64,000 bases of DNA from Candidatus Scalindua arabica (GTDB lineage: Bacteria > Planctomycetota > Brocadiia > Brocadiales > Scalinduaceae). The position numbers and the translations under genes are program-made. Numbering within the stretch: position 1 is the stretch's first letter; every line of letters begins with the position of its first letter. Where the stretch lies: assembly GCA_018263435.1 (NCBI GenBank), contig JAANXD010000077.1:21031-85030 (forward strand), read 5' to 3'. This document shows positions 8,151-17,453 of this stretch, in pieces. The notes under the pieces are model-generated. The model had not been told where the DNA came from and did no database searches. It saw only the letters and a list, made by a program, of their open reading frames with translations.

Positions 8151-10310
8151 TTAAGCTGGATTTGTCTCTCGCTGTACATAAGCTCTTACAAGTTTTGCCT
8201 CATCATAGCTTACGGCGCCTTTGGAATGTTCGACAACAGGCCCTGTATTCCACGTCTTGAGGGTTAAAAATAGCTTCTCGATTGTGTTTCGATTTGCGGG
8301 TTCAACGAGGCGGTCTATTTCGATATCACGGCCATTCCTTATCAGGTTTTCAAGGTGCCCTGTGATAGTAGAGACTGCAAGGTTGCGTTCTTTTGAAATT
8401 TCCTCAATTGAAAGCCCTTCCTTGAAAAGATCATAGGTTTTTTCGATTGTTCCCACTTTTACCTTTTTCGGTAACGTGCCAGCAGGTATGGTAACGGGTT
8501 TTCTGTCAGGGATTGAAATCCCGGGATTTTCATCAAGATGTGCCTTTATCTCCTCTGTAAAATCAGTACCGTATCGTTCAAGTTTGGTATCACCGACACC
8601 GCTGATAGTTTTCATATCGGTTAATGTTGCGGGGTAGTAAATGCACATTTCATGAAGAGTCATGTCAGAAAATATTATGTATGGAGGAACCCTGTGCTCA
8701 TCAGCAAGTCTCTTTCTGAGTACGCGAAGCCTGTCAAAAAGGACTTCATCATAAGGCTCAAATCCACTCACTTTAAATGCTTTGGGTTTTTTCTTTATCT
8801 CTTCCCTTTTTAATCCCTCTATCTTTTCTTTACCGTAGAGTATGTCTGTACCCTTTTTTGTCAGTATTAACACCGGATACTGTCCGCCGTCCTGTACGAT
8901 AGCATCCTGTGCCAGGAGTTCGTTGATAATGAACTGCCAGTGTTTCTTTTCTTTGTGCCTGCCTGCGCCGTAGGTCTTGATCTCATTATGTTGAAGTTCC
9001 CTGATACGTTTTGTATCAGCGCCGGCTACAATATCAATGATATGTCTGATTCCAAAATGCTGGCCTGTCCTTGATATAGCCGACATTACTATCTGTGCAT
9101 CAGTTGTTATATCAATCTTCTCAACATTACCCATACAAATGTCGCATGCCCCGCAGTTTTCATTAGTATAATTCTCGCCAAAATATTCAAGAAGCTGTCT
9201 GCGCCTGCATACATTGTGTGAAGCATACTTGACCGTCTGATTCAGCTTTTCCATGGAGATTGACCGCTCATTCTCACTGGGCATCTGATCTATAAAATAC
9301 CTGATCTTAGGAATGTCCTGTCTGCCAAAGAAGAGGAGACAATTAGCAGGCTCTCCATCTCGTCCTGAACGTCCTGTTTCCTGATAATATCCTTCTATGT
9401 TTTTTGGCAAATCGGCATGGATTACAAAGCGCACGTTTGACTTGTCTATTCCCATACCAAATGCAATTGTTGCTACAATTACGGTAACTTTGTCCCGGCT
9501 GAAAGCCTCCTGGTTTCTCTTGCGTTCCTCTGTAGCCAATCCGGCGTGATAAGGCAGAGCGCTGATGCCTTGATCTACCAGAAACTCGGCTAATCTGAAA
9601 ACTGAGTCGCGTGTAGTACGGTAAATTATGCCCGGTTCGTCCTTATGTTCTTTGAGAAATTCCAGTATTTGTGATTCTAACTCTATTTTACTTTTTACCT
9701 GATAAAAGAGGTTCTGGCGATTAAATGATGCACGGATAACATATGGAGATCTCAGTCCGATCTTATTGATTATATCTTCCTGAACCCTCGGTGTGGCGGT
9801 TGCCGTAAATGCTGTTACCGGAATGTGTGGAAAGGTTTGAGTAAGGCCGGAGAGGCTCAGGTAATCAGGGCGGAAGTCATGTCCCCATTCTGAAATGCAA
9901 TGTGCCTCGTCTATGGCAAAAAGAGATAAGGGAATAGTTTTCAGAGTTTCTATGAAACCCTGCATAGCGAAACGTTCGGGTGCAATGTAGAGTAATTCTA
10001 ATGTATGATTCTTCAGTCTGTGGTATATGTCAGACATCTCTTGCGTACTCAGAGAACTGTTAATAAAGGCTGCAGAAATTCCATTCTCAATGGCCGCATC
10101 AACTTGGTCCTTCATCAGGGATATCAGTGGACTTATAACAACCGTAGTCCCGGTCATCATTTTGGCAGGTAATTGATAACAGAGCGATTTCCCTCCCCCG
10201 GTAGGCATCACGGCAAAGACATCTTTTTTGTCCAGGATGTTCCTGATTATCGTTTCCTGATTAGGGCGAAAAGATTGAAACCCAAAAACCTTTTTAAGTG
10301 TGTTATGCAT
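8151..10310 (-). CDS. recQ: ATP-dependent DNA helicase RecQ
   Basis: PTGGGKSLCYQLPA, DEAH box, Q..GRSGRDG, RQC zinc-binding cysteines, HRDC domain. Confidence 0.96.
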   Translation of the reverse strand: MHNTLKKVFGFQSFRPNQETIIRNILDKKDVFAVMPTGGGKSLCYQLPAKMMTGTTVVISPLISLMKDQVDAAIENGISAAFINSSLSTQEMSDIYHRLKNHTLELLYIAPERFAMQGFIETLKTIPLSLFAIDEAHCISEWGHDFRPDYLSLSGLTQTFPHIPVTAFTATATPRVQEDIINKIGLRSPYVIRASFNRQNLFYQVKSKIELESQILEFLKEHKDEPGIIYRTTRDSVFRLAEFLVDQGISALPYHAGLATEERKRNQEAFSRDKVTVIVATIAFGMGIDKSNVRFVIHADLPKNIEGYYQETGRSGRDGEPANCLLFFGRQDIPKIRYFIDQMPSENERSISMEKLNQTVKYASHNVCRRRQLLEYFGENYTNENCGACDICMGNVEKIDITTDAQIVMSAISRTGQHFGIRHIIDIVAGADTKRIRELQHNEIKTYGAGRHKEKKHWQFIINELLAQDAIVQDGGQYPVLILTKKGTDILYGKEKIEGLKREEIKKKPKAFKVSGFEPYDEVLFDRLRVLRKRLADEHRVPPYIIFSDMTLHEMCIYYPATLTDMKTISGVGDTKLERYGTDFTEEIKAHLDENPGISIPDRKPVTIPAGTLPKKVKVGTIEKTYDLFKEGLSIEEISKERNLAVSTITGHLENLIRNGRDIEIDRLVEPANRNTIEKLFLTLKTWNTGPVVEHSKGAVSYDEAKLVRAYVQRETNPA

Positions 10311-10459
10311 ATCACGATTTTATGACATCGGCATAAAACATGTCAAGAATAGAAATGATAAGTTTACTTTAAATTCTATTTGATTTGATTCTAAAATAAG
10401 AATACAATTTCTGCTAACGAAATTATAAATGCTTTATTGTAATACAAAGGAGAAGTTAT

Positions 10460-10759
10460 ATGTCTACAAAAACATCAAAACAAACGATTCATTCTTATAT
10501 CACAAGCGATCCCAAAATTTGCGGTGGAGAACCAATAATTATTGATACCAGGATATCTGTTAGACTGATTGTAAAGTTAGAGAATATCGGGAAAAGTGTA
10601 GACGAGATTGTGGCTATGTATCCGCATATAACCCACGCCCAGGTGCACGATGCCCTCTCCTATTATTATGACAACAAGGAAGAGATAGACCGGTTTATCG
10701 AGGAAAACAGTGAGGAATATATTAGAAAAAGATATAAAGGATCGCCGTGGCTGAAATAA
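10460..10759 (+). CDS. DUF433 domain protein (antitoxin-like)
   Basis: SDPKICGGEPIIIDTRISVRLIVKLENIGKSVDEIVAMYPHITHAQVHDALSYYYDN. Confidence 0.9.
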   Translation: MSTKTSKQTIHSYITSDPKICGGEPIIIDTRISVRLIVKLENIGKSVDEIVAMYPHITHAQVHDALSYYYDNKEEIDRFIEENSEEYIRKRYKGSPWLK

Positions 10760-10908
10760 AGCTGTATCTGGATGAAGATATTTCTCATACAGTTGCAGAG
10801 GTGCTCAGGAGCAGGGGATATGTTCTCAAACTAGGCAAGGTTGTCTTTGAAGGCACACCTGATGAACTAAGGCAAGAAGGGAATATACAAAAACTGTATT
10901 TGACCTGA
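10747..10908 (+). pseudogene. DUF5615-type (PIN-like) N-terminus fused in frame to a LivF-like C-terminal tail, 53 aa
   Basis: Hand-translated from GTG 10747: (V)AEIKLYLDEDISHTVAEVLRSRGYVLKLGKVVFEGTPDELRQEGNIQKLYLT*; overlaps the DUF433 stop; below the ORF-track length cut-off. Confidence 0.75.
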
Positions 10909-11104
10909 TTCTGTCAATAGTGGCGCTACTTAGCTTTGATTGCAAGAAAGCTAATTTACATAGTATTTGGATCAAAATTATTGTTAAGCTTAAGATAATT
11001 TTGTTATAAGTATTGTATACTTCAAGTTGAATATATACGAGGAATATAAAGATAGAGACTAGGCAGATTACTGTCTACGGAAATCAATTTAAAAAGTTTA
11101 AAGC

Positions 11105-11689
11105 ATGAATATTTGGCAGATAGACAAGTTAGCATTATTTCTAACTTTTTTTATACCAGGTTTCATATCAATAAAAATATATGATTTATTAGTACCAAGT
11201 GAATTAAGAAATTTTCCAAAAACTTTATTTGAAGCGATTGGTTATAGTGCTTTAAATTTTGCTGCGTTATCTTGGTTGATTTATTTAATTCATTCAGGAA
11301 ATTTTTATAGTAATCATGGGTTCTGGTACTTTGTTTTCTTGTTTATCATAATGTTCCTTGCACCTATTTCCTGGCCATTCCTTTTTATCAAGTTATCATT
11401 ATGGAAACCTGTTGCTAAATATATTATACATCCTATACATAAACCCTGGGATTATGTCTTTGGAAAGAAGGAATCATTTTGGATTATTGTTCATCTTAAA
11501 GATGGAAGAAAAATAGGCGGTAAGTTTGATACAAATTCTTTTGCTTCTTCTTATCCTGCTGAAGAACAGATATACTTGGAAGAAGTGTGGAAATTAAAAG
11601 AAAATGGTGGGTTCGTAGAACCTATTGATAGATCTCAAGGAATACTCATCTCAAGCAAGGAAATTTTATCAATAGAATTTTTTAAATAA
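11105..11689 (+). CDS. DUF6338-like membrane protein
   Basis: KLALFLTFFIPGFISIKIYDLLVPSE followed by TM segments and a soluble C-terminus WIIVHLKDGRKIGGKF. Confidence 0.75.
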   Translation: MNIWQIDKLALFLTFFIPGFISIKIYDLLVPSELRNFPKTLFEAIGYSALNFAALSWLIYLIHSGNFYSNHGFWYFVFLFIIMFLAPISWPFLFIKLSLWKPVAKYIIHPIHKPWDYVFGKKESFWIIVHLKDGRKIGGKFDTNSFASSYPAEEQIYLEEVWKLKENGGFVEPIDRSQGILISSKEILSIEFFK

Positions 11690-11708
11690 AAAATTAGGAG
11701 ATAATGTT

Positions 11709-11888
11709 ATGTCAGAAGAAGGAAAACAGTCAAAAAAGGAAATACCATTAAAAGAAGAATATCAACCTATCGAAAAAGGGTATCAACCAACACAAGGGAA
11801 TATAGATACTTCGAAGCCCCCTCAAGGTGGTTCAGGAGTTGCATCAGATACTTCTACTGAAAGTAACGAGACTGACGAGAAGAAATGA
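11709..11888 (+). CDS. Small 59-aa hydrophilic protein with repeated YQP motifs
   Basis: Hand-translated: MSEEGKQSKKEIPLKEEYQPIEKGYQPTQGNIDTSKPPQGGSGVASDTSTESNETDEKK*; GGAG-like RBS upstream; 19 nt after the DUF6338 gene; absent from ORF track (under 60 aa). Confidence 0.65.
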   Translation: MSEEGKQSKKEIPLKEEYQPIEKGYQPTQGNIDTSKPPQGGSGVASDTSTESNETDEKK

Positions 11889-11961
11889 GTAGGGAAAACT
11901 TTTTTACCTAGCATAAGAAACAGAAAAGAAATATACCAATATATGCAGTAAATGTATATTA

Positions 11962-12070
11962 TCAGATATGGACTGCTTTGCCTTCAATAGCATAAAAGGT
12001 TTCGGTGAATACTTCTGAGAGTGTGGGGTGTGGGAATATGTTGGCACTGACTTCCAGATTCGTCACTTCC
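11962..12070 (-). pseudogene. Remnant of the lpdA (dihydrolipoamide dehydrogenase) 3' end
   Basis: Reverse complement reads EVTNLEVSANIFPHPTLSEVFTETFYAIEGKAVHI*; gapless over 109 nt with 15575-15683 (22 mismatches counted by eye, about 80% identity). Confidence 0.92.
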
Positions 12071-12208
12071 TCTATTATAATTACATGTCTATATTATGCA
12101 GAAGATTCTGCAAGTAAGATTTTTCATCTATGCATTAGATAGAACCGTGCAAGAAAGAAATAATAAGAGATACCGAATCAAATATTGTGTTCCTAGAATT
12201 CAAAGATT

Positions 12209-13945
12209 ATGAAATTAGATATAAAATCAACTGGTGCAACTTTTACACCAAGGAAGTTGGCTGATTTTTTAGCTGAAAAAATTATTAATGAATTTGATTT
12301 TGATTCAACCTCACACGAACTGAAAATATTAGATCCAGCTTGTGGTGACGGTGAGCTGTTGCTATCAATATCTAAAAAACTTAATACTTTTGGAATTAGT
12401 AAATTTAAAACTATTGGGTTTGATTCTAATGGCAAATATGTCGCCGAATCAAAGAAAAGATTAGATTTAAGTAGTATTCAAAATAAGGAAATAATTCAAG
12501 CTGATTTTCTTCAAATGTCAACTGGTTCAGATCCACAATTGGAATTTAATTTTGGTAAGTCTAAAACAGGTGATTTAAAAAGTTTTGTAGACATAATTAT
12601 ATCCAATCCTCCATATGTACGAACCCAAATACTTGGTTCAAAAAAAGCCAAGCTACTTGCTAAAAAGTTCAAATTAAAAGGTAGAGTCGATTTATATTAT
12701 CCATTTTTAATTTCAATGACTAAAAGTTTGAAAACAGGCGGAATATTGGGAGTAATTACTTCAAACCGTTTCTTGTTTACTAAAAGTGGGGAAAGTGTCA
12801 GGAAATTTCTAATTGATAATTACGAAATAATCGAAGTTATTGATTTAGGAGACACAAAATTGTTTGATGCAGCGGTTCTACCTGCGATTTTTATCGGCAG
12901 GAAGGAATTGAAGAAAACCAACGGCAAATTGGATAAAACGAAATTTTTAAGAATTTATGAAGCATTAAATGGCTCAAATCGAAAACAGTTTTATATTGAA
13001 TCTGTCTTTGATGTTTTAAATGTTACTAAAGATGGGATTTATAATACTGCTACTGAACACAAAAAATATAAGAAAATAAAAGAAAAAATAAAAAAAAAAA
13101 AAAAAAAGGGTGAAACATGGACAATGCTTACAAATGATGAAGCAAAATGGACAAAAAAGATAGAGTCAAATTCTGAATATACGATAGGTGATTTGTTTAA
13201 AGTTAGGGTAGGGATTAAAACAACTGCCGATGAAGTCTTCATTCGTAAAAATTGGGATGAATTAGGAAACGAAAAACCGGAAAGAATCCTTCTTAAAGAA
13301 TTAATATCTCAAGAAAATATAGACAGATGGAGAACACACCCCAATTGTAAAATGAAGGTTTTGTATCCGCATGATTTTAAAGATGGTAAAAAGGTAGTAA
13401 TTAATATCAATAAATATCCAAAAGCTAGAAAGTATTTAGAGAAATACCAAGAAAAGTTAAAATCGAGAAAGTATCTTATTGCAGCTGGCAGAAATTGGTT
13501 TGAGATTTGGGTTCCGCAAAATCCATCTTACTGGAAAAAACCAAAACTAGTTTTCCCTGATATTAGCTCTAAACCAAGATTTTTCCTTGATGTATGCGGC
13601 TCTATTGTAAACGGAAATTGTTACTGGATTGTAAACGAAAACAACGAAAGTATTGACCCTTTATTATTAATACAAGGCATTGCTAATAGCAATTTAATGA
13701 CTAAATATCATGACCTTTCATTTAATAACAAGCTATATTCCGGAAGAAGAAGATATTTTACACAATATGTTGAAAGATATCCTTTTCCAAAATTAGATTC
13801 GATAGAATCGCAAGAAATTATACAAATAGTTAAAGAATTAAATATAGATTCGATTGATTCAACTTCAATTAAAGTTTTGGAAGAAGAACTAGAAATTAAG
13901 GTTGCTAATGCATATGGGGTTAAGCCTATATCTAATCCGGGTTGA
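12209..13945 (+). CDS. N6-adenine DNA methyltransferase (Eco57I/TaqI-like) of an RM system
   Basis: LDPACGDGELLLS (motif I), DIIISNPPYVRTQ (motif IV NPPY), C-terminal TaqI-like specificity region. Confidence 0.92.
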   Translation: MKLDIKSTGATFTPRKLADFLAEKIINEFDFDSTSHELKILDPACGDGELLLSISKKLNTFGISKFKTIGFDSNGKYVAESKKRLDLSSIQNKEIIQADFLQMSTGSDPQLEFNFGKSKTGDLKSFVDIIISNPPYVRTQILGSKKAKLLAKKFKLKGRVDLYYPFLISMTKSLKTGGILGVITSNRFLFTKSGESVRKFLIDNYEIIEVIDLGDTKLFDAAVLPAIFIGRKELKKTNGKLDKTKFLRIYEALNGSNRKQFYIESVFDVLNVTKDGIYNTATEHKKYKKIKEKIKKKKKKGETWTMLTNDEAKWTKKIESNSEYTIGDLFKVRVGIKTTADEVFIRKNWDELGNEKPERILLKELISQENIDRWRTHPNCKMKVLYPHDFKDGKKVVININKYPKARKYLEKYQEKLKSRKYLIAAGRNWFEIWVPQNPSYWKKPKLVFPDISSKPRFFLDVCGSIVNGNCYWIVNENNESIDPLLLIQGIANSNLMTKYHDLSFNNKLYSGRRRYFTQYVERYPFPKLDSIESQEIIQIVKELNIDSIDSTSIKVLEEELEIKVANAYGVKPISNPG

Positions 13946-15050
13946 AAATTGACAATCCAGCATACTTTTCAAAGTAGTTCATCGGGATTGCTCTTTGACA
14001 TTTGTAGCTTTTGTCACTAACATATGAAAACGCGTCACCAAGTTTTTCGCCAGGTGCAAGTATAATTCCTTCAATTATGCCTGTTTTTTCATTCGTTAAT
14101 GCAATTAAGTATCGTACATCAAATGTTGTTAGATTATTCTCCTCTATAACAATTTCCTCAACTTCAGGTGAAAATTTTCCCAAATCAACAGTTGGCGAAT
14201 CTTGAACTTTTACTTCTAATAATTGATTCCGAATATCAGGAAAGGCTCCATATAAAAGAGATTTTTTGTTCGTTTCATAGCCTAATAAATTCAAGACAAG
14301 CCTTTCTAATGCTTGACCTCTATTTTTTGTTGCACCAAAATATAATTTCTGCCCAATTAATTTTTTTGCGACCATTTCATTTAAAAGTTCAATAGAATAA
14401 AGTTTCTCAAATTCAGGTTCTTGAACCATTGGTAAATTTGGTGGTTTGTATTTATGAGTTATTAAATATGACAGTTTTTTCGTATCGTCATAACTCAAAA
14501 CTCTAGTCTCACTTTTATAAATCTTTTCTCTCACCTTTGATGAAATTAGAAGTTGATGTTTGAATGTTGGCTTCCCAAATTTTCCAAATTTAGTTTCAAT
14601 ATAATCATCTGTTAAAATTATAATTGAAGCAATTACTTTCTTTGATGGGATAATTCTGACAAATACAAATCTTACATCATTGCAATACAGAGATTTACCC
14701 GATTCATATTTGATTAATAAAGTTTTACTAGCAGGAATTCTATTCCAAACCTGCAAATTATAAGACTTACCTGTTGTTACTATATAAGTGTCTATAAATT
14801 CTCTTGTTATTTTAGGGATACCTTTACCTCTTGGTGGTACAACTTCATACTCACATTTTGGACACTTTTCAGGCAAGTCATATTTTCCTAAAGTCTTTTC
14901 TATTAACTTCCTGGCATTTGAACCATCTGTTCGTGTTTTGCCAGATAAAATAAATTTTACCCCTACTAATTCTTTTAATCTATCTGCAAGAACTTTAGGG
15001 TTAGTAAGATTGCTTACTGATTTAGGTGGTATTTTATATTCACCTTTCAT
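13932..15050 (-). CDS. Probable type II restriction endonuclease, PD-(D/E)xK-like
   Basis: GAFPDIRNQLLEVKVQDSPTVDLGKFSPE nuclease-like motif; convergent 14-bp overlap with the methylase; directly abuts an HTH regulator. Confidence 0.78.
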   Translation of the reverse strand: MKGEYKIPPKSVSNLTNPKVLADRLKELVGVKFILSGKTRTDGSNARKLIEKTLGKYDLPEKCPKCEYEVVPPRGKGIPKITREFIDTYIVTTGKSYNLQVWNRIPASKTLLIKYESGKSLYCNDVRFVFVRIIPSKKVIASIIILTDDYIETKFGKFGKPTFKHQLLISSKVREKIYKSETRVLSYDDTKKLSYLITHKYKPPNLPMVQEPEFEKLYSIELLNEMVAKKLIGQKLYFGATKNRGQALERLVLNLLGYETNKKSLLYGAFPDIRNQLLEVKVQDSPTVDLGKFSPEVEEIVIEENNLTTFDVRYLIALTNEKTGIIEGIILAPGEKLGDAFSYVSDKSYKCQRAIPMNYFEKYAGLSIFNPD

Positions 15051-15287
15051 TTATGATTTATATTCAGAAAATAATTGTGAAATCTTTATATCAAGTGCAT
15101 CTGCAATTTTTTTTAAATTCAAAACAGAGATATTTCTTTCACCTCTTTCAACTGAACCTATGTAAGTTCTGTCCAAATCACATTTAAAAGCTAGTTTTTC
15201 TTGTGACAATTCTTTTTGTAGTCGGAATTCTTTTATCGCAAGACCTATTTTTAATAGAAATTGCTTTTCGAAATTCTTATAAGGCAT
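15051..15287 (-). CDS. XRE-family HTH regulator (controller-protein-like)
   Basis: GLAIKEFRLQKELSQEKLAFKCDLDRTYIGSVERGERNISVLNLKKIADALDI; immediately upstream of the REase gene. Confidence 0.9.
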   Translation of the reverse strand: MPYKNFEKQFLLKIGLAIKEFRLQKELSQEKLAFKCDLDRTYIGSVERGERNISVLNLKKIADALDIKISQLFSEYKS

Positions 15288-15574
15288 AGTAAACTCCTTT
15301 AATAAAATAATAAGATGTAAATAATAATATTAGATGACAATAAGTCTACTGACTATAAGTAGCCAGTGGAAAGTGGAACATACATCGTACCCACCCCTAG
15401 TTAAGATATTGATATTAGGAAGGAATGGTATGAGGAATTAAGGGATTGGAGAAAGATTATTCGAATGACCCAGATGAAAACACGTTGGGATTGACAGAGG
15501 TTAAAAAGGCCAATGCCAGTTAGAAAAAATTAGATCATTTAAGGAGAAATAATAGAAATAAGAGCAAAATGTTT

Positions 15575-16984
15575 TCAGATATGAATCGCTTTGCCTTCAA
15601 TAGCGTGAAAGGCTTCAGCAAAAACCTCAGAAAGGGTTGGATGTGGGAAAACGTTGGCGCTGACTTCCAGATTTGTTGCTTCCAGATTCATGGCAAGAGA
15701 CATGCCGCCTATCAATTCTCCTACTTCATGGCCTATCAGGTGTACGCCCAGGATCTCTCCGCTTGATGCATCAGTTATAACTTTTATGAAGCCTTCCTCA
15801 CCCTCACCCATTATATGAGTCTTAGAGTTAGCCATGAAGGGGAATCTGCCAATCTTTATATCGTAGCCTTCCAATTCTGCTGCTTCCTGACTCATACCGA
15901 CGCTTGCAACCTGTGGATTGGTGTAGGTTACACCCGGGATTGTGTTATTATTTATCGGCGGGAAGTCTCTGCCGGCAATATTGTGTGCAACGAGCAGGCC
16001 CTGTGCAGATGCCAGATGTGCAAGTAGAGGCGGCCCGTTTACATCACCAATTGCATAAATGCCGGACTGGCTTGTCTGCATGTTCTCGTCTACGTTTATG
16101 AACCTTCCATTAAATTCAAGATTAAGTTCCTCCAGGCCTGAATCTTTCGTTTCAGGCTTTCTGCCCAAGGCAAGCAGAACTTTTTCGCTTTGAAGTATTT
16201 CCGTATTACCGTCACTATTTCCATCATTTCTCTTGACCGTTGTTTCGGCCGAGTTTTCTTTTATTTCAATAAGGTTTAGATTGGTCTCAGTGAGAAAATT
16301 TACACCTTTCTTCGAAAGACTCTCTCTCAGCGCACTTCCTACATCTTTGTCATTTGTAGGAAGGATTTCGTCCATCATCTCAATCACTGTTACCTTGCTT
16401 CCAAGCGCATTATAGATATAAGCAAATTCCACCCCTATTGCGCCTCCCCCGATAATCAGGAGTGAAGATGGTATCTCTTCCAATTCCAGAATATCATCAC
16501 TCGTCAATACATTTTTTTTGTCATAGGGAAGACCGTCAAAAACCATAGGGGAAGAACCTGTAGCAACAATTATATTCTTTGCAGATACTTCTTCTTTGAT
16601 TCTATCGCCTTCCTTGATCAGAACTTTATCGGGAGATACTACTTGGCCAGTGCCATTCAACATGTCAACTTTGTTTTTCTTGAGCAGGTGTTTGATGCCG
16701 CCGAATAGTCTGGTTACTATTGTTCTCTTTCGTTTGTGGAATTCACTGAAATCTGCACTGACACCTTCTGTAACTATACCGTACTCTTTGCTCCTTTTAC
16801 ATAGTTCGTATAAATGGGTGGACTGAATCAATGCCTTTGTGGGAATACAGCCTCTGTGCAGGCACGCTCCTCCAACTTTATCCCTTTCTACCAGTCCTAC
16901 ACTCAGCCCCAGTTGTGCGCCCTTAATCGCCGCAACATAACCTCCGGGTCCGCCACCAATAATCAATAAATCATATTCTTTCAT
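15575..16984 (-). CDS. lpdA: Dihydrolipoamide dehydrogenase
   Basis: GGGPGGYVAAIKGAQLG, GGACLHRGCIPTKAL redox motif, C-terminal dimerisation HPTLSEVFAEAFHAIEG. Confidence 0.96.
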   Translation of the reverse strand: MKEYDLLIIGGGPGGYVAAIKGAQLGLSVGLVERDKVGGACLHRGCIPTKALIQSTHLYELCKRSKEYGIVTEGVSADFSEFHKRKRTIVTRLFGGIKHLLKKNKVDMLNGTGQVVSPDKVLIKEGDRIKEEVSAKNIIVATGSSPMVFDGLPYDKKNVLTSDDILELEEIPSSLLIIGGGAIGVEFAYIYNALGSKVTVIEMMDEILPTNDKDVGSALRESLSKKGVNFLTETNLNLIEIKENSAETTVKRNDGNSDGNTEILQSEKVLLALGRKPETKDSGLEELNLEFNGRFINVDENMQTSQSGIYAIGDVNGPPLLAHLASAQGLLVAHNIAGRDFPPINNNTIPGVTYTNPQVASVGMSQEAAELEGYDIKIGRFPFMANSKTHIMGEGEEGFIKVITDASSGEILGVHLIGHEVGELIGGMSLAMNLEATNLEVSANVFPHPTLSEVFAEAFHAIEGKAIHI

Positions 16985-17060
16985 AAAATAGTCTTACCTC
17001 TTCCTTTATTCTTTCTTTAGGCGGAAGGATCAAAAAATCCACTTTGTTGCTTTCTATTCA

Positions 17061-17081
17061 TCCCCTCCTTGCGAAGGAGGA
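17061..17081. repeat. Palindromic CCCCTCCTTnnnAAGGAGGGG-type repeat, copy 1
   Basis: tcccctccttgcgaaggagga. Confidence 0.7.
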
Positions 17082-17111
17082 TTGAAAAGTTTTCATTTTA
17101 TCACCTCCCCT

Positions 17112-17294
17112 TTAATCCCCTCCTTCGTAAGGAGGGGGATGAGGGGTGGTTGCAACAATATCACACAAAACACCTTCAATATTATTTAAAACATCATTGT
17201 TTGTATATCTTAACACTTTAATTCCTAATGCTTCTATTTCTTTTTGTCTTTTCTTTATATACTCTTTTTTATTGAATACTTCCGTCATATTCAA
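17112..17294 (-). pseudogene. DUF559 (endonuclease-like) gene with internal deletion, ending inside a palindromic repeat
   Basis: MNMTEVFNKKEYIKKRQKEIEALGIKVLRYTNNDVLNNIEGVLCDIVATTPHPPPYEGGD: N- and C-terminal DUF559 signatures with the central domain missing. Confidence 0.7.
17117..17138. repeat. Palindromic CCCCTCCTTnnnAAGGAGGGG-type repeat, copy 2
   Basis: cccctccttcgtaaggaggggg. Confidence 0.75.
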
Positions 17295-17362
17295 AATACC
17301 TTTTATTTGACTCTTCTCAAAAAAGGAGCGATATAGAACTTAATTTATAACCACCCCTTTGT

Positions 17363-17383
17363 CCCCTCCTTCGCAAGGGGGGG
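17363..17383. repeat. Palindromic CCCCTCCTTnnnAAGGAGGGG-type repeat, copy 3
   Basis: cccctccttcgcaaggggggg. Confidence 0.7.
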
Positions 17384-17453
17384 ATATCTATTGTCCGCAT
17401 TTAGAAGTATAACAAAGCTTGTAGATTTTATCCGCAAGGAATTCCGGTCTCTC

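Follow-up and report, generated by a model that had tools for sequence, protein, structure and literature searches.

Genes and Features between recQ and lpdA

The window, a stretch of 64,000 nucleotides taken here at its full length, comes from a Candidatus Scalindua MAG of 2.69 Mb in 102 contigs, and the nearest named genomes to this source genome are Candidatus Scalindua, anammox Planctomycetota. Between recQ and the dihydrolipoyl dehydrogenase gene lpdA it carries a DUF433 block, a gene for a DUF6338 protein and a C-regulated Type II restriction-modification (RM) cassette, the last lying between two copies of the lpdA 3' end. The features used below are as follows.

8151-10310, minus strand: recQ, the core gene bordering the hotspot on the left, adjoining lpdA in 12 genus and family relatives (13 copies)
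10311-10912, plus strand: DUF433 gene (10460-10759; Pfam DUF433) with its flanking block, common to the cargo-bearing alleles of relatives
11105-11689, plus strand: DUF6338 protein (Pfam 1e-37), cargo of the left allele
11962-12070, minus strand: remnant of the lpdA 3' end, 36 codons including the stop, from the repeat search and comparison with the intact tail
12209-13945, plus strand: N6-adenine DNA methylase of the M.BseCI kind (M.BseCI structure match E = 2.2e-157; PADLOC MTase_II, 653 bits)
13932-15050, minus strand: Type II restriction endonuclease (PADLOC REase_II, 6.6e-24), convergent with the methylase gene and overlapping it
15051-15287, minus strand: HTH controller gene, coding for the C protein and lying upstream of the endonuclease (PADLOC Control_protein, 9.5e-24)
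15367-15457, no strand assigned: low-copy dispersed repeat of about 90 nt at the right edge of the cassette
15450-15574, minus strand: native 3' flank of the intact lpdA, aligning with the short gap that separates recQ and lpdA in G004 and with the lpdA end there
15575-16984, minus strand: intact lpdA, right core gene (TIGR01350, 549 bits), with an affinity mosaic around nt 916

The preliminary description had reported a direct, gapless and degenerate duplication of the lpdA 3' end, and this duplication is real. The repeat search returned a direct ungapped repeat of 11956-12070 and 15569-15683, 79% identical over 115 nt. The remnant at 11962-12070 (109 nt) lies 3.6 kb away from the intact lpdA end at 15575-15683 and differs from it at 22 positions in the last 108 nt, with 5, 1, and 16 of the differences at codon positions 1, 2, and 3 and six amino-acid changes. 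When LpdA was compared with the whole genome by tblastn, the remnant was recovered with E = 1.5e-12 (83% identity, residues 435-469) and no further lpdA fragment like it was found; the similarity is therefore far beyond chance. The two copies had also been said to bracket the RM genes exactly. The cassette does lie between them, but the wording was slightly generous, as 138 nt separate the remnant end from the methylase start and 287 nt separate the HTH gene from the lpdA stop, about 125 nt of the latter being native lpdA 3' flank.

The Restriction-Modification Cassette

The N6-adenine methylase, the endonuclease and the C protein stand in the order that is characteristic of C-regulated Type II RM systems (BseCI-like), and the same order of methylase, convergent endonuclease and HTH gene is found on Thioclava and Shewanella plasmids. 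The methylase is close to M.BseCI; the cassette differs from others of the M.BseCI type in being chromosomal, in an anammox planctomycete, and in having an endonuclease with only distant similarity (27-36%). No homologue of the endonuclease was found in the other genomes of the genus, and the 392 sampled genomes of the phylum held two distant relatives only (33-36%). The GC content of the cassette is around 30%, versus around 42% for recQ and lpdA. A search for the donor of the cassette gave no phage match and only distant plasmid relatives. M.BseCI targets ATCGAT, and from homology to this enzyme the cassette is predicted to recognise the same site.

A run of 18 A at 13090-13107, within the methylase coding sequence (a lysine run), is a possible slippage or phase-variation tract. 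Ten of 13 Scalindua genomes carry the repeat of about 90 nt, with 1-3 copies at intergenic sites that are unlinked, and in the window its end falls precisely on the cassette's right edge. No structured RNA was found at the junctions. The only candidate, a weak sub-threshold match to an Rfam miRNA model, fell outside the recQ-lpdA interval, on three palindromic, GC-rich repeats (CCCCTCCTTCGCAAGGAGGGG-like) that lie at 17053-17385, between lpdA and fdhA.

The recQ-lpdA Interval in Related Genomes

The gene recQ is followed by lpdA in the 12 relatives that have both together (13 locus copies); in G013, which belongs to the family, the two genes are not neighbours. A check of relatives for an empty site had been proposed, and five copies proved to be near-empty, with gaps of 45-201 bp (G009a 45, G003 75, G006a 85, G012 140, and G004 201). 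The gap of G006b is 197 bp and partly unread (N), and that of G010 is 702 bp without a recognisable gene. The cargo of the remaining copies is varied: an 834-aa N6-methylase/TaqI_C protein and a PIN protein in G007, DUF433 and DUF5615 in G008, an MNT nucleotidyltransferase in G009b, a DUF433 remnant with MNT/HEPN in G001, a UVR-motif protein in G014, and, in G002 (L119, 4125-7436), DUF433 with an 1103-aa HD-CE/STAND-like/TPR/SEC-C protein that is a candidate defence gene. The DUF6338 protein has only a 45% relative in the genus, located elsewhere in G002. In G009 the whole cysC-recQ-lpdA-fdhA region is present twice, as diverged copies on different contigs (L116 and L117); either the region was duplicated or the bin contains two strains.

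No integrase was present among the annotated proteins of the relatives' gaps, and no second lpdA tail was found in them, short matches being at chance level only. An ancient tandem lpdA duplication, the arrangement that the preliminary description had set against its own reading, was not seen in any relative. Flanked by conserved genes, empty in part of the genomes and filled with unrelated cargo in others, the gap between recQ and lpdA is a defence/toxin-antitoxin hotspot in which no integrase is seen. A literature search on RM systems and horizontal gene transfer in Scalindua returned no description of it.

Flanks and Divergence of the Two Tails

The sequences next to the two tails were compared with the alleles of the relatives. 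The short gap of G004 aligns to 10254-10364 of the window and then to 15450-15638 (85% for the latter). Roughly 10365-15449 is therefore extra relative to a near-empty allele, and the flank 15450-15574 belongs to the intact lpdA. On the left side, 10337-10766 is 95% identical to G002, 10410-10822 is 90% identical to G008 and 10833-10910 is 94% identical to G001. Next after the remnant come the DUF6338 gene and the DUF433 block, and this block stands beside recQ in G001, G002, and G008. The remnant is joined to a left side of the DUF433 type and so shows where the lpdA of a cargo-bearing allele ended; the intact lpdA ends as it does in another kind of allele, the near-empty one of the G004 type. 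The noncoding stretch 12071-12208 had no convincing homologue in the genus.

The affinities of the tails agree, though weakly, with the two alleles as read from the flanks. The remnant tail is closest to G001 and G002, from which it differs at 15-16 of 108 nt (versus 22 from the intact tail), and the intact tail is closest to G004 and G008. A phylogeny of the remnant had been suggested as a way to find the donor. The nearest tails could be named, but the 108-nt tree had no supported branch, and an AU test did not reject remnant and intact tail as sisters (p 0.33). Tails of 108 nt were too short and the AU tests undecided, and phylogeny was rejected as a discriminator.

Of the 22 differing states of the remnant, 18 are found in relatives, whereas a neutral copy of the intact tail would be expected to share few. 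When such a copy was left to decay neutrally in 5000 simulations, with all changes falling on it, neither 18/22 shared states nor 16/22 third-position changes was ever reached, and a lenient half/half model reached them in 1.5% and 7.7% of cases, respectively. Most of the divergence between the two tails thus probably arose while they were functional genes. All four private changes of the remnant are nonsynonymous and both private changes of the intact tail are synonymous, a pattern that is consistent, in small numbers, with decay of the remnant after truncation.

The core genes are themselves mosaic. The lpdA gene resembles that of G009a up to around nt 916 and not beyond (maximum z 3.7, permutation p 0.006, uncorrected for the uneven constraint along the gene), and recQ loses its G009a affinity at the 5' end, beside the gap. 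Recombination signal was detected in recQ, in lpdA and equally in fdhA, the next gene and sole control; as proof of hotspot-specific exchange the test was dropped. The shift in lpdA is what a homologous crossover predicts, and since recQ and the control are mosaic too, we count it as support and not as proof.

Origin of the Duplication

What was observed is two tails with differing flanks, sites that are empty in relatives and a cargo that varies; from these we infer a mechanism, a direction (that is, which allele was resident) and an order of events. We think it reasonably probable that, in this integrase-free hotspot, two divergent alleles were fused with the RM cassette at their seam, likeliest by homology-facilitated illegitimate recombination. 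Recombination through the core genes on either side would exchange the alleles of the hotspot. The left part, from recQ-DUF433-DUF6338 to the last 109 nt of lpdA, would come from a cargo-bearing allele of the G001/G002 type, and the right part, made of 125 nt of 3' flank and the lpdA 3' end, from an allele of the G004 type, with the M.BseCI-like cassette placed where they meet. An incoming RM-flank-lpdA fragment would have paired with the resident lpdA and undergone a homologous crossover inside this gene or upstream of it, and the other end of the fragment would have been joined illegitimately at around 12070, inside the resident lpdA tail. The outcome would be an lpdA that is whole but mosaic, with the displaced old end as a decaying remnant. 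That the remnant is the displaced resident end is more likely than that it is a tail carried in by the cassette. The two parent alleles predicted by this scheme, recQ-DUF433-DUF6338-intact lpdA and RM-flank-lpdA without a remnant, were present in none of the sampled genomes. The entry of foreign DNA with a divergent lpdA tail, put forward in the preliminary description, thus survives in part: the RM cassette probably came in at the lpdA 3' end together with such a tail, but what was called foreign is better described as another chromosomal recQ-lpdA allele.

In homology-facilitated illegitimate recombination, DNA is added by one homologous and one illegitimate end, as described in Streptococcus pneumoniae, Acinetobacter baylyi, and Pseudomonas stutzeri (PMC3240628). 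The process predicts both added DNA and a truncated part of the resident gene in direct orientation, and it would leave, in this order, a chimeric lpdA, the flank of the donor, the cargo and the truncated tail of the resident. At the illegitimate end it predicts a few bp of identity; the search for a donor sequence at 12070 found none. It is known experimentally, whereas here it is deduced from sequence in an uncultured bacterium. The genome encodes a homologue of ComEC, which serves in DNA uptake in known systems; its presence does not show competence.

A simple insertion of the RM cassette into the lpdA 3' end, duplicating a target of around 110 bp of which the orphan copy then drifted, appears unlikely. 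Long, variable target duplications are reported for insertions of RM genes (Nobusato et al. 2000, as cited in PMC3031569), and the locus has in common with them that RM genes stand between direct repeats of about 100 bp; the length and position of the repeat fit such an event, and the AU test does not reject the tails as sisters. The copies at lpdA, in contrast to that account, are 79% alike and show allele-like differences, most of them third-position states present in relatives, unlike the neutral drift of a copy. From an ancestral order flank-tail-lpdA, moreover, a duplication should place the native flank outside the left copy (flank-copy-insert-copy-gene), but it is found, G004-like, inside the bracket between the cassette and the intact copy.

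It is quite unlikely that the metagenome assembler joined the alleles of two Scalindua strains that occurred together. The assembly is a MAG in many contigs, and the relative bin G009, with its two copies of the whole locus, indicates that strain mixtures occur. The private nonsynonymous changes of the remnant, however, would be unexpected in a functional strain allele, and neither junction consists of a long stretch of common sequence such as could mislead an assembler, the repeat copies being too far apart in identity. The reverse direction, in which RM-flank-lpdA was resident and an lpdA tail-DUF6338-DUF433 fragment came in anchored in recQ, would account for the lost affinity at the 5' end of recQ next to the gap, but it does not explain why lpdA loses its resemblance to G009a in its 3' third, and we regard it as distinctly improbable.

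Site-specific integration into the lpdA 3' end by an element supplying a replacement tail, in the tRNA-like mode, is highly improbable even if an insertion at a gene 3' end that keeps the gene whole would suit it: no integrase lies in the interval (the seven integrase matches of the genome are all on other contigs), the copies have no identical core, the ancestral flank is on the intact copy and not on the remnant, and no tail copies stand beside the other cargo of relatives. On the same evidence, the suggestion of target-gene capture by an integrative element is not supported. Both site-specific integration and simple target duplication are disfavoured because they predict another flank order.

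A broader proposal is rather doubtful: that recQ-lpdA is a genus-wide defence hotspot kept by transformation-like allele exchange, with the remnant as the scar of one exchange and the repeat of about 90 nt as a preferred joining site.

Meaning for Scalindua

Hotspots diversifying through homologous recombination in the core genes on either side tend to border recombination or repair genes (PMC5635113). The locus resembles them in its variable defence/toxin-antitoxin cargo between two conserved genes without a visible integrase, in the mosaicism of the flanking core genes, seen here equally in the control fdhA, and in having a recombination/repair gene, here recQ, as a border. It differs in that one exchange appears to be still readable from its scar, which is the lpdA end that was displaced, and in that species of one genus were compared here and strains of one species there. 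The process, allele recombination with the gain of an RM system in a hotspot, is ordinary; the scar is unusually legible, and the locus is a well-documented instance of known processes. It gives a concrete trace of the way in which an anammox lineage, slow-growing and uncultured, may have gained a defence cassette with no mobile element involved, and it names recQ-lpdA as a hotspot in which to seek further defence genes of Scalindua.
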